Part shown: positions 256 through 62,917 of the stretch, piece after piece
How positions within the stretch are numbered: position 1 is the first letter of the stretch
Layout of the letters: every line of letters begins with the position of its first letter
DNA from: Aureispira sp. CCB-QB1
GTDB lineage: Bacteria > Bacteroidota > Bacteroidia > Chitinophagales > Saprospiraceae
DNA length: 64,000 nucleotides
NCBI RefSeq assembly: GCF_000724545.1
Contig: NZ_JHBV01000041.1
Location: 310,001 to 374,000 of the forward strand
Direction of reading: 5' to 3'
The notes under the pieces: generated by a model
What the model was told of the DNA's origin: nothing
Databases searched by the model: none
What the model saw: the letters and a program-made list of their open reading frames with translations, nothing else
Position numbers and translations under genes: made by a program

Positions 256-603
256 TTAATTTATTGCATGAGTGCTGCGCAGTTGATAATCAACAAATTG
301 AAAACTCATTGCGTTTTGCGTTAAAATTTTGATTATCAACTGCGCAGCACTCACAGCTGATTTGTTGTGTCTACTTTCTAATAACAACTCTTTCTGCTCT
401 TTGTTGTAAATAAAATTATGGACTCCTTTGGTATACACTTTAGCACCTTTGTTAGCAATTCGGAGATGATTGGGACTAACTACTTTTTCTAAATAAAATT
501 CTTCCGACCAAACATCTCCTCGTTCAGTATAGTTTGCACATACACACAAGTTATTTGATTTCAAATCAATATCTAGCCTTACTACTCGATCAAATAATTT
601 CAT
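256..603 (-). CDS. Small hypothetical protein with a repeat-derived C-terminus
   Basis: A 115-residue protein I do not recognise. Residues 1-83 look like ordinary coding sequence (beta-rich, with a YTERGDVWSEEF stretch). Residues 84-115 are translated from the palindromic repeat at 269-353, so the original C-terminus has been replaced or extended by repeat DNA. The start ATG at 603 lies inside the first bases of another repeat copy (599-774), so both ends of the gene touch repeats. It lies 13 bp upstream of the Rof-like gene. It may be a working small gene or a decaying one. Confidence 0.45.
   Translation of the reverse strand: MKLFDRVVRLDIDLKSNNLCVCANYTERGDVWSEEFYLEKVVSPNHLRIANKGAKVYTKGVHNFIYNKEQKELLLESRHNKSAVSAAQLIIKILTQNAMSFQFVDYQLRSTHAIN
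269..353. repeat. Palindromic repeat with perfect 25-bp arms
   Basis: The arms at 269-293 (TGAGTGCTGCGCAGTTGATA...) and 329-353 are perfect reverse complements, separated by 35 bases. The module CTGCGCAGCACTCA also occurs inside the MITE-like element at 28429-28654 and, slightly changed, in the one at 19090-19278. The flanking ACTTTATTAATTT at about 250-263 also matches the 28.4-kb element, so this is a partial or rearranged member of the same family. It is transcribed and translated as part of the gene at 256-603. Confidence 0.85.
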
Positions 604-774
604 AAAAATTTATAGGCAAAATAGAATTCTTTTTACACTATTCTTCATCAAAAAATCTCGTTTTAACCCACTACCACGAAGTAACACCACAGGTAAAACT
701 TCAATTCTTTTCTTTGAACAGCACTAAAAACAATTGCATTTTTAGTGATACTTTTTTTCTGTCCACTTACTTAA
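599..774. repeat. Dispersed repeat family 2, copy 1, carrying the 22-bp cassette
   Basis: Nearly identical to 12287-12439, from TTCATAAAAATTTATAGG to TCTGTCCACTTACTTAA. The length difference of 23 bases is explained by a 22-bp insertion at 673-694 (ACCACGAAGTAA...CACAGGT) plus one extra T in a T-run. There is no reading frame inside it. It begins at the start codon of the gene at 256-603. Confidence 0.85.
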
Positions 775-12221: not shown

Positions 12222-12286
12222 CTTTAGGCATTTATATTTTGATGGTAGTTTATTGATTCCTATAAGAATACACAATTAAGTAATCG

Positions 12287-12439
12287 TTCATAAAAATTTA
12301 TAGGCAAAATAGAATTCTTTTTGCACTGTTCTTCATCAAAAAATCTCGTTTTAGCCCGCTAAAACTTCAATTCTTTTCTTTGAACAGCACTAAAAACAAT
12401 TACATTTTTAACTATACTTTTTTCTGTCCACTTACTTAA
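12287..12439. repeat. Dispersed repeat family 2, copy 2, without the cassette
   Basis: Matches 599-774 over its whole length with few substitutions but lacks the 22-bp insertion: here CCCGCT runs straight into AAAACTTC. It is intergenic, between two minus-strand genes. Confidence 0.85.
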
Positions 12440-16923: not shown

Positions 16924-17069
16924 CAATAGTTCGTTGAAAAACTTTATTAGTTTGATAATTAATAAGTTATGATTTTATCGCATTTTGTGTTAAAATTTTG
17001 ATTATCAAACTAATATAAATGTGCTTTTTTATCTTTTTGGTAAAAAAGTAAAAAATCAACGAACTACTA
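16924..17069 (+). repeat. MITE-like element, copy A (simple form)
   Basis: About 146 bp with terminal inverted repeats CAATAGTTCGTTGA and TCAACGAACTACTA, flanked by the 6-bp direct repeat ATATCA (16918-16923 and 17070-17075). An inner inverted repeat (TTTGATAAT...GATTATCAAA) lies at 16951 to about 17004. It has no GC-rich cassettes and no reading frame. Confidence 0.75.
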
Positions 17070-28428: not shown

Positions 28429-28654
28429 CAATAGTTCGTTGAAAAACTTTATTAATTTGATAATCAGCAAGTTATACTTTTACTACATTTTGTGTTAAAA
28501 TTTTAATTATCAACTGCGCAGCACTCATGAAGTACCACGAAGTAGCAGCGCAGCTAAACTAATATAAATGTGCTTTTTTATCTTTTTGGTAAAAAAGTAA
28601 ACAACTAAGCGATAGCGATCTCACGAGCGCAGCGAGCTAATCAACGAACTACTA
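28429..28654 (+). repeat. MITE-like element, copy C (largest, with cassettes)
   Basis: A 226-bp element with ends CAATAGTTCGTTGA and TCAACGAACTACTA, flanked by the 6-bp direct repeat ACACAA (28423-28428 and 28655-28660). Compared with copy A it has a 44-bp insertion at about 28511-28556, which includes the 22-bp cassette at 28534-28555 and a GCGCAGCACTCATG module, and a further insertion with GATCTCACGAGCGCAGCG near 28620. It fills most of the gap between the LOG gene and the gene at 28689. Confidence 0.8.
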
Positions 28655-39696: not shown

Positions 39697-40133
39697 ATTG
39701 TATGATTATAATTGATAGTGTTTTGTCATTTAATGATTTATCTTATCTTGACCGATAATTCTATCATTTTATTTTTGTACAAACCTCCAATAGTTCTAAA
39801 CAAACATACGAAACTGACTATCAAACCAGTTTAAGATGCTTTTGGTATTTTTCATCTATCAAATGAATACTTTTATTTATTGAATAAATAAAAAACAAAG
39901 AACTATTAAATTTCAATACAACTTAATTTTTATGGTTGACAAAGATAGAATTTTTTGTGAAAAAATGAACAGCTACACGGTATAATTTCTAGAGCTTACT
40001 TTGCTCTTAAAAGGAACCTTTTTAATGGTTTTCGAGTTATTTCATCCAAATATTAGCAATTCTTTGCATTTAATACTGCGCTACTACTGCGTGGTCGCTC
40101 GGATTATTACAAACAATAAAACAATACCCTATC
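39697..40133. other. Divergent region with a cassette copy
   Basis: Contains a TATCTTTG box on the minus strand (39947-39940) and the GC-rich cassette at 40075-40095. No RNA or frame seen. Confidence 0.4.
40075..40095 (-). repeat. GC-rich cassette, stand-alone copy
   Basis: On the minus strand ACCACGCAGTAG...AGCGCAGT, one base shorter than the 22-bp form. It lies about 40 bp before the DUF434 gene and stands out against the AT-rich surroundings. Confidence 0.6.
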
Positions 40134-43892: not shown

Positions 43893-43914
43893 AACTACAC
43901 TACTACTCGGTGGT
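43893..43914 (-). repeat. GC-rich 22-bp cassette, diverged copy
   Basis: On the minus strand ACCACCGAGTAG...GTGTAGTT, length 22, matching the cassette consensus at most positions. Confidence 0.45.
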
Positions 43915-50655: not shown

Positions 50656-50677
50656 TTCTGCGGTGCTACTGCATGGT
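50656..50677 (-). repeat. GC-rich 22-bp cassette, stand-alone copy
   Basis: On the minus strand ACCATGCAGTAG...CCGCAGAA, length 22. It lies in the gap between the DUF6986 and xdhC genes. Confidence 0.6.
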
Positions 50678-57712: not shown

Positions 57713-58582
57713 ATGCAAAACATACTCAATATGAATCTAAAATTTGTACTTATCCTTAGTTTGATTTGCTTTTTTGGGGGCAAAACACAAGCACAGGACA
57801 ACTTAGAATCTCTTTTGAGCATAGTTGAAACTGGCAAAACTTACGCTTTGTACAAAGCAAAAGCTGGAGATACTAAAATAATCAAAGAAACTAAGACACA
57901 CTACTTGAAACTTGTTCCAGCAAAATATGAAACGGTATTAGATACAATCGAGCTTGCACCTGCGTTGAACGGTAATTTAGATACTAGTAATTACTTCATT
58001 CAGACCGAAGTTTTGGTTCTAAAAGAACCTGGTGCGGAATGGAAAACAGCCAAGGTTTCTCCTTTGTGTAGAAAAGATGATGGTGTGCCTCACCTTGCAC
58101 TTTGCTTATTAAAAACAACGCCAGATTATAAAATTGTACATCGCAAGTTTTTTCCTTTTAAAAACATCATTGATACTACCACAACAGACTATGTTATTCC
58201 TGCTGAAACGATTATCGTTAAGCGCAAAGTATTAGTGCAAAAAGCACGTATTTACTATGTCACTGCTGAAAAGAAAAATGAGCTAGGTCCAGGAGAGAAA
58301 ATAATTGAAATTCCTGCGGGTTCTTGGAGACAATGGGCAGAAATAGTTTGTCCTTTTGGAGACTTTAATGACCCTTCTATAGAAGAAATCCAAAAAGCTC
58401 TCAAAAAACAACAATACGACGTTCGAATCACAGGGAAATTTGACGAGCAGACAAAAAGACATTTGATGATGTTTCAAAAAGATAATATGCTCACAGATGA
58501 TGGAGGAAATGTCACCCCCGAAACTTTAGATCGGTTGGGAGTCAAAAGAGAAAAGTTAATTCAAATTGATTTCTTAAACTAA
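57713..58582 (+). CDS. Secreted peptidoglycan-binding-domain protein
   Basis: A 289-residue protein. ATG 57731 (MNLKFVLILSLICFFGG) would give an even tidier signal peptide than 57713; both are possible. The mature part is beta-rich with a repeated KxxYALYK/LVPAKYETV theme, and residues about 220-285 form a PG_binding_1 helical domain (IEEIQKALKKQQYDVRITGKFDEQTKRHLMMFQKDN). It probably sits on the cell wall. It is monocistronic with a strong terminator. Confidence 0.75.
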   Translation: MQNILNMNLKFVLILSLICFFGGKTQAQDNLESLLSIVETGKTYALYKAKAGDTKIIKETKTHYLKLVPAKYETVLDTIELAPALNGNLDTSNYFIQTEVLVLKEPGAEWKTAKVSPLCRKDDGVPHLALCLLKTTPDYKIVHRKFFPFKNIIDTTTTDYVIPAETIIVKRKVLVQKARIYYVTAEKKNELGPGEKIIEIPAGSWRQWAEIVCPFGDFNDPSIEEIQKALKKQQYDVRITGKFDEQTKRHLMMFQKDNMLTDDGGNVTPETLDRLGVKREKLIQIDFLN

Positions 58583-62872: not shown

Positions 62873-62917
62873 CAATAGTTCGTTGAAACCACGCAGTAGC
62901 AGCGCAGCTAACTACTA
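62873..62917 (+). repeat. MITE-like element, copy E (45-bp remnant)
   Basis: Left end CAATAGTTCGTTGA, then a full 22-bp cassette (62888-62909), then AACTACTA. It is flanked by CCTTAA (62867-62872) and TCTTAA (62918-62923), a probable 6-bp target duplication with one change. Confidence 0.65.

Follow-up and report, generated by a model that had tools for sequence, protein, structure and literature searches.

Module A, a 22-bp non-coding sequence dispersed through the genome of Aureispira sp. CCB-QB1, is present or absent as an exact block at numerous sites, which lie in larger repeats unrelated to one another and belong to more than one genus. An occupied site has precisely these 22 bp more than an empty one, shows no target duplication, and carries the block immediately 5' of an AA dinucleotide. 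Some of the differences are recent, as they separate two strains of one species and otherwise identical repeat copies. We lean, with slightly better than even confidence, towards a very small dispersed element whose folded strand is handled as a unit and which has spread together with two larger repeat families, F1 and F2. The window analysed here is a stretch of 64,000 nt (G000:C41:310001-374000, where G000 is the window's genome, of 7.37 Mb); the names F1 to F4 for repeat families and A to E for modules were coined in this analysis. A sequence-only reading of the window had proposed a very small mobile or copied unit, and this proposal is supported by the copy number, by the exact occupied and empty sites and by the strain differences described below.

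A genome-wide count of the 22-mer with mismatches, which that reading had set as a check, showed that the unit is not rare: G000 carries 390 copies of module A (ACCACGNAGTAGCAGCGNAGCT) at up to 2 mismatches in the form with N positions, and 363 copies of the plain 22-mer at up to 3 mismatches, the reversed control giving 0 in both cases. At up to 2 mismatches, 376 copies are found in the same-species genome G030, and 193, 130 and 75 in G001, G006 and G003 of the same genus, respectively (reversed control 0); G030 and G003 are near-complete, in 2 and 3 contigs. At the same threshold no copy was found in G002, G004, G005 and G007, also of this genus, nor in another 22 genomes drawn from the family and order. 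An exact-match scan of a wide genome collection returned at least 74 stretches, with Aureispira, Neolewinella, Lewinella, Crocinitomicaceae, Flavobacteriales, Bacteroidales and Parapedobacter among the matches listed, and when 395 genomes were sampled evenly from the phylum, a single one, the window's own genome, gave an exact match. G000 has repeat contexts in common with Aureispira MAGs. The module is therefore patchy and not universal, with high copy numbers in some genomes of one genus and sparse occurrences beyond it. Viral carriage was rejected on a search of viral contigs, which gave 0 exact module matches. ORFs of at least 100 aa make up 79.6% of the 1.43 Mb of sampled stretches, window included, and 112 of the 116 module copies there are found outside them; between tandem genes, 34 copies have the same orientation as the genes and 31 the opposite one, i.e., there is no bias.

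Within the window, the near-identical F2 copies reported at 599-774 and 12287-12439 are borne out in position, and their difference is, as had been claimed, 22 bp (673-694) plus one T, with scattered substitutions besides (the sequences flanking the 22-bp indel are 95% and 94% identical). The six units that had been listed occur on both strands and all fall between ORFs of at least 100 aa; their quality ranges from exact to 4 mismatches (Table 1). At up to 3 mismatches the window holds 3 module matches, versus 0 in 100 shuffles. Neither F2 copy toggles between strains G000 and G030, the copy at 599-774 being occupied and that at 12287-12439 empty in both, and the occupied copy shows some substitutions between the strains.

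Table 1. Modules and repeat elements in the window (mismatches of the units at 62888-62909 and 28534-28555 are scored against the plain 22-mer, those of the units at 673-694, 43893-43914 and 50656-50677 against the N-consensus).
Feature	Position	Strand	Remarks
F2 MITE-like element, occupied copy	599..774	+	left end degenerate
Module A, CACC/AGGT variant	673..694	+	the indel, inside F2 element; 4 mismatches to N-consensus; empty paralogue at 12287; same state in strain G030
F2 element, empty copy	12276..12439	+	161 columns identical to occupied L161, module left out
F1 element without module A	16924..17069	+	
F1 mosaic element	28429..28654	+	with modules D (CTGCGCAGCACTCATGAAGT), A and C
Module A	28534..28555	+	1 mismatch to plain 22-mer
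Degenerate module A	40074..40095	-	3 mismatches
Degenerate module-like unit	43893..43914	-	4 mismatches
Degenerate module-like unit	50656..50677	-	4 mismatches
Minimal 44-bp F1 element	62873..62916	+	CAATAGTTCGTTGAA + module A + AACTACT
Module A	62888..62909	+	exact

The comparison of occupied and empty sites that the sequence-only reading had called for yielded both kinds, between paralogues as well as between two strains of the same species. In 1.17 Mb of G000 (the window and L135-L194), anchored counts found both states at ten positions in three repeat families. Empty and occupied copies number 18/8 at F1a, 3/1 at F1b (7/3 with another right anchor), 20/2 at F1c, 5/2 at F1d and 19/2 at F1e (counted with anchor F1e2, the shorter F1e anchor having matched non-repeat DNA); 2/3 at F2a, 3/3 at F2b and 18/5 at F2c, in one subfamily (anchors F2c, F2c2 and F2c3 overlap at one position and are not summed); and 11/1 at F3a and 2/1 at F3b. 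Intermediate lengths, which would favour drift or slippage, are uncommon: site spacing is mostly 0, 22 or 48, the 48-bp inserts usually consisting of module A and the 26-bp module B (AACTAAAAGCGNAGCGCTCACGNAGT). Exceptional inserts at anchored sites measure 12, 14, 32 and 38 (one each) or 46 (two); the other exceptions are a 1-base difference in an A run (7 copies) and stretches of 84-118 made of other modules or unrelated DNA. The 12 and 38 inserts resemble the 22 and 48 ones shortened by 10, as would result from a deletion between two ACGAAGT copies. The 5' border of the inserts is sharp and this, together with the small number of shortened inserts, argues against target-primed reverse transcription and simple template switching. 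The same 0/22 alternatives exist in Neolewinella antarctica, at two unrelated sites (L074 versus L096, L107 and L088). A loose joined-flank search (E at most 0.01, at most 3 gaps) gave an empty paralogue for 61 of 109 modules, and for 40 of 92 in public loci, some of them weak; these searches tolerated a wrong second pair, which affects only the choice of borderline copies kept, and the toggling claim relies on the anchored counts and the named examples, not on the loose totals.

The strand given above as module A would form two adjacent mini-hairpins with GNA loops, CCAC-GNA-GTAG and then AGC-GNA-GCT, with stems of about 3 bp each as judged by covariation and, in most rows, a conserved C.A or C.C mismatch in the first. 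The set used for this purpose placed no constraint on the stem-pair columns (three pairs) or on the two loop centres and allowed one mismatch elsewhere; across 3.15 Mb of loci it comprises 260 distinct contexts (two-strain orthologues included) and 79 distinct 22-mers, and the reversed pattern has 0 matches in the same 3.15 Mb. Column pairs 15-21 and 4-10 show the highest mutual-information excess among all 231 pairs of the 79 distinct 22-mers (0/2000 shuffles as high), are Watson-Crick in 67/79 and 75/79 of them, and include 12 and 7 double-change Watson-Crick cases, respectively. The third stem pair, 2-12, is weak (Watson-Crick in 63/79; 22/2000 shuffles as high). For a chosen 55 of the 79 22-mers, a covariation tool counted 23 double-change cells versus 4.7 in shuffles, with a score of 0.255 versus 0.071; pairs showing a double change are, in these 55, no more numerous than in shuffles (3 versus 2.3, 210/500). 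Because bare 22-mers fold no better than shuffles in ViennaRNA (z of +0.3 to +0.6), the two-hairpin structure rests on covariation and on published data for GNA hairpins. DNA mini-hairpins with a GNA loop are described as very heat-stable and nuclease-resistant in one such study (PMC4686876). The 3' half of the module contains the GCGNAGC of the mini-hairpin d(GCGNAGC), which is a structural motif; the literature searched contains no report of it as a dispersed genomic unit. AA directly follows the module on its 3' side in 245 of the 260 distinct contexts and the upstream bases are variable. Empty sites already contain this AA, which is therefore target and not cargo.

A different account would make of the module a cis-acting functional site (protein-binding site, terminator or RNA element) that is under selection and not mobile, and the preserved stem and spacer positions, next to two loop N positions that vary, as well as the mostly intergenic location, would be in keeping with it. 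However, such a site would have to show no orientation preference between tandem genes, to be present or absent in otherwise identical repeats and to be missing from four other genomes of the genus; moreover, an Rfam search of the window gave 5 matches at E of at most 1, 0 of which overlap a module. We regard this account as highly improbable.

Further evidence for turnover comes from the F2 family, which has 42 matches in G000, with two length classes, around 152 and 174 bp, among the stronger ones. A tree of 30 distinct G000 copies, with the modules left out and identical copies counted once, contains 14 occupied, 10 empty and 6 unscored rows in which the states are mixed, and the occupied or empty state is unrelated to the tree: it changes 8 times, the mean being 7.9 in shuffles (344/500 as low). 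Supported branches force at least 4 changes, a tool estimate obtained on a tree whose bootstrap had, per the tool's warning, not settled. Both states coexist in four groupings, one strong (100/99), one fair (90/92) and two weakly supported, and a fifth (100/98) unites one empty and four unscored rows. In addition, two sets of identical rows hold both states, including the empty window copy at 12277 and the occupied L161, and the 70 joined flanking bases are 100% identical between occupied and empty copies in three F2 subfamilies (L161/L185, L187/L156 and L186/L193). These differences represent gain or loss, the two directions being indistinguishable. In the best F2 subfamily the copies share a module variant, as might be expected if a single exact loss or gain had then been amplified or propagated by conversion.

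The strain comparison covered 776,004 aligned bases, with 0.52% substitutions. Out of 82 modules on the G000 side of the alignment, 76 are shared with G030 and 6 are found in G000 only, five of them inside whole-element differences and one at L169, where a messy 26-bp difference with nearby substitutions (L169:2496) was not scored as clean; 3 more modules are present in G030 only, one inside a whole F2. Clean 22-bp differences in module A occur at L233, L256 and L139, each of which differs by two modules at once. By inspection, L139 has the 22-bp module D in G000 and, instead, A at site F1a in G030. At L256, the F4 copy of G030 equals its empty orthologue except for A, the 20-bp module E and one distant base, with another F4 copy carrying an identical module A. 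Variation between the strains also affects modules of 22 (D), 26 and 34 bp. Among indels of at least 8 bp between the strains, 22 bp is not a dominant length (n=3, one of which is module D) and 12 bp is the commonest (n=10), in a tally that includes short spurious gaps from the non-orthologous L142/L143 alignment.

Substitutions between the strains amount to 2.0% in F1/F3 elements (139 in 7046 bp) versus 0.5% outside them (3893 in 768886 bp). Because of this excess, and because two modules differ at once, which is usual at the clean loci, the data suggest conversion at L233, L139 and L256, and recombination among the larger repeats accounts for part of the turnover better than movement of the unit alone does. 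Recombination could even be the whole story: the module would have entered each repeat family once, long ago, and would now be redistributed by ectopic gene conversion or template switching between paralogues. Beyond the raised substitutions and the double changes, the flanks of two module sites are fused in the F2 copy L172:9950, the product that recombination between modules would give, and toggling inside one F2 subfamily could still be conversion. However, the three F2 subfamilies with identical-flank pairs differ near the site, so that separate events or very short tracts would be needed in each. At L233, moreover, the new module is only 8 bp of repeat away from the unique flank, and at L256 the occupied F4 paralogue has differences no farther than 9 bp left of the first module and 18 bp right of A, as well as one in a loop base of the other module. 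Recombination as the sole process thus strikes us as unlikely, if well worth considering.

Whole repeats are also strain-polymorphic, F2 with a TA target duplication and F1 with a 7-bp one in the two clearest cases (TCCTATT and ATGTTTT). At L234:1151 (G000:C41, around 131151), one of the two strains has a complete 44-bp transposable element that the other lacks: module A flanked by two short inverted ends and bordered by a target duplication of 7 bp. This element is equivalent to the minimal element of the window and could arise by recombination between modules at F1 sites a and e. F2 itself, of about 160 bp (about 182 bp with the module), is a recently mobile MITE with TA target duplication, as at L152, L168, L175, L177, L179, L182 and L268.

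In the element model that we favour, a folded single strand, on the lagging strand or in other exposed ssDNA, would be recognised or bypassed as a unit, its 3' hairpin contributing the very stable GCGNAGC core, and the module would be cut out or pasted in at the structural borders by a putative trans-acting or replication-linked activity. Inside F1 and F2, copies would be multiplied by transposition and reshuffled by recombination between repeats, steps that are visible in part. We put the chances that the folded strand is processed as a unit at about even.

Candidate enzymes for such movement were searched for in the same genomes. REP and REPIN sequences are intergenic hairpin repeats in hundreds of copies that are tied to single-strand DNA processing by Y1 enzymes (PMC6006769, PMC3116915). 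Module A shares with the REP/REPIN and RAYT systems the intergenic location, the hairpin and the hundreds of copies; it differs by its short stems, by not being a doublet in inverted orientation, and by having no longer imperfect hairpin with a GTAG-type foot, the GTAG of the module being the 3' side of its first mini-hairpin. Nor was a Y1 gene found in G000, G001 and G003 with the Pfam Y1_Tnp model, or in G000, G030, G003 and G001 with a profile of eight related Y1 proteins, G030 and G003 being near-complete. A REP-like element moved by a Y1 transposase (RAYT/TnpA-REP), since lost from most carriers, would agree with the hairpin, the lack of target duplication, the intergenic position and the high copy number, with the Y1 genes of related genomes that stand beside small-hairpin arrays, several with GAA loops (L129, L131), and with the one Y1 gene of G006, which has 130 modules. 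Yet G004 has a Y1 gene and no modules, and the recent strain differences suggest current activity, which together with the genomes in which no Y1 gene was found makes this origin very improbable; the REP/RAYT assignment was rejected on Y1 searches that were negative in four module-rich genomes and positive in G006 and the module-free G004.

A route through RNA, in which the module would be transcribed and re-inserted by a reverse transcriptase, appears more improbable still. It could draw on the favourable GNA loops being on one strand only and on RVT_1 matches in G030 (one) and G003 (two), but the RVT_1 profile found nothing in the module-rich G000, G001 and G006, there are hardly any of the shortened inserts that target-primed reverse transcription would leave, and orientation between tandem genes is unbiased. 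This route was set aside on the RVT_1 searches, which were also positive in the module-free G002.

The closest known kind seems to be the cyanobacterial 'small dispersed repeats' (SDRs), which module A resembles in its features. SDR1-SDR8 of Nostoc and relatives, reportedly described by Elhai et al. in Genome Res. in 2008, are said to be non-coding, about 21-27 nt long and present in high copy, to have a structure with compensatory changes, to lie inside mini-transposons, and to form precise insertions with no gene of their own; an RNA intermediate has reportedly been suggested for them. Module A is likewise short and dispersed, at 390 copies against 0 for the reversed control, with compensatory changes at pairs 4-10 and 15-21 (weak at 2-12); it has precise occupied and empty sites, and it lies inside the mini-transposons F1 and F2, which are strain-polymorphic as whole elements. 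In contrast to SDRs, it belongs to another phylum, Bacteroidota, in several groups of which the same 22-mer occurs, it has two GNA-loop mini-hairpins and inserts before AA, and it toggles among otherwise identical copies and differs at the strain level. MITEs, here F1 and F2, are non-autonomous, dispersed and strain-polymorphic like the module that they carry, but have terminal inverted repeats and target duplications (TA for F2, 7 bp in the two clearest F1 cases), and module A has neither. The SDR study is cited in PMC3116915, and the SDR kind is named in PMC2884548. A literature search of open-licence papers found no report of such a unit in Bacteroidota.

A bolder reading, tentative and in our view rather doubtful, is that of a protein-free 'DNA micro-intron' of several Bacteroidota, in which the 22-nt double GNA mini-hairpin would set its own borders and ordinary replication or repair would excise it and re-insert it exactly. 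If this were true, the sister modules of about 20, 26 and 34 bp would follow the same before-AA rule and form with it a modular cassette system in transposable repeats. For cyanobacteria, mobile units of some 20 bp that carry no gene have reportedly been proposed, and we know of no account of how such units move. Module A makes this mechanism testable: its copy unit is well defined, it shows a target rule and covariation, and two strains of one species differ by exact blocks; in addition, G030 and G003 are near-complete, module-rich genomes in which searches for the usual Y1 enzyme gave no match.

Several other observations were made in passing. The Y1 genes of related genomes (L129, L131 and L132) are of the Y..NQ..HH type and adjoin small hairpins, with arrays at L129 and L131, several GAA loops and a possible REP-like pairing. 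At orthologous F1 elements, the 34-36-bp module C, which stands just before AA, differs between strains, being present, missing, replaced or shifted by 12 bp (window 16924-17069 and 28429-28654; L262, L237 and L179): near 17044 of the window, the 34-bp module AACTAAGCTTGCGATCTCACGAGCGTAGCGAGCT is present in G030 and absent in G000, and in the mosaic F1 element module C is placed differently, as a variant, in G030. F4 (L276-L286) is a repeat of about 280 bp with ends AAAGGTTAT and ATAACCTTT and near-identical copies, in which two modules, partly complementary to each other in sequence, are gained or lost jointly; the F4 core, TTCTTTT-CTTGAT-AAAAGAA-ATCAAG, could form a pseudoknot. A sub-threshold Rfam match to wcaG RNA (34.7 bits, cut-off 42) lies at 58007-58094 of the window. 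Finally, a long inverted repeat at 269-353 of the window, GAGTGCTGCGCAGTTGATAATCAA...TTGATTATCAACTGCGCAGCACTC, resembles an F1 core without its ends.
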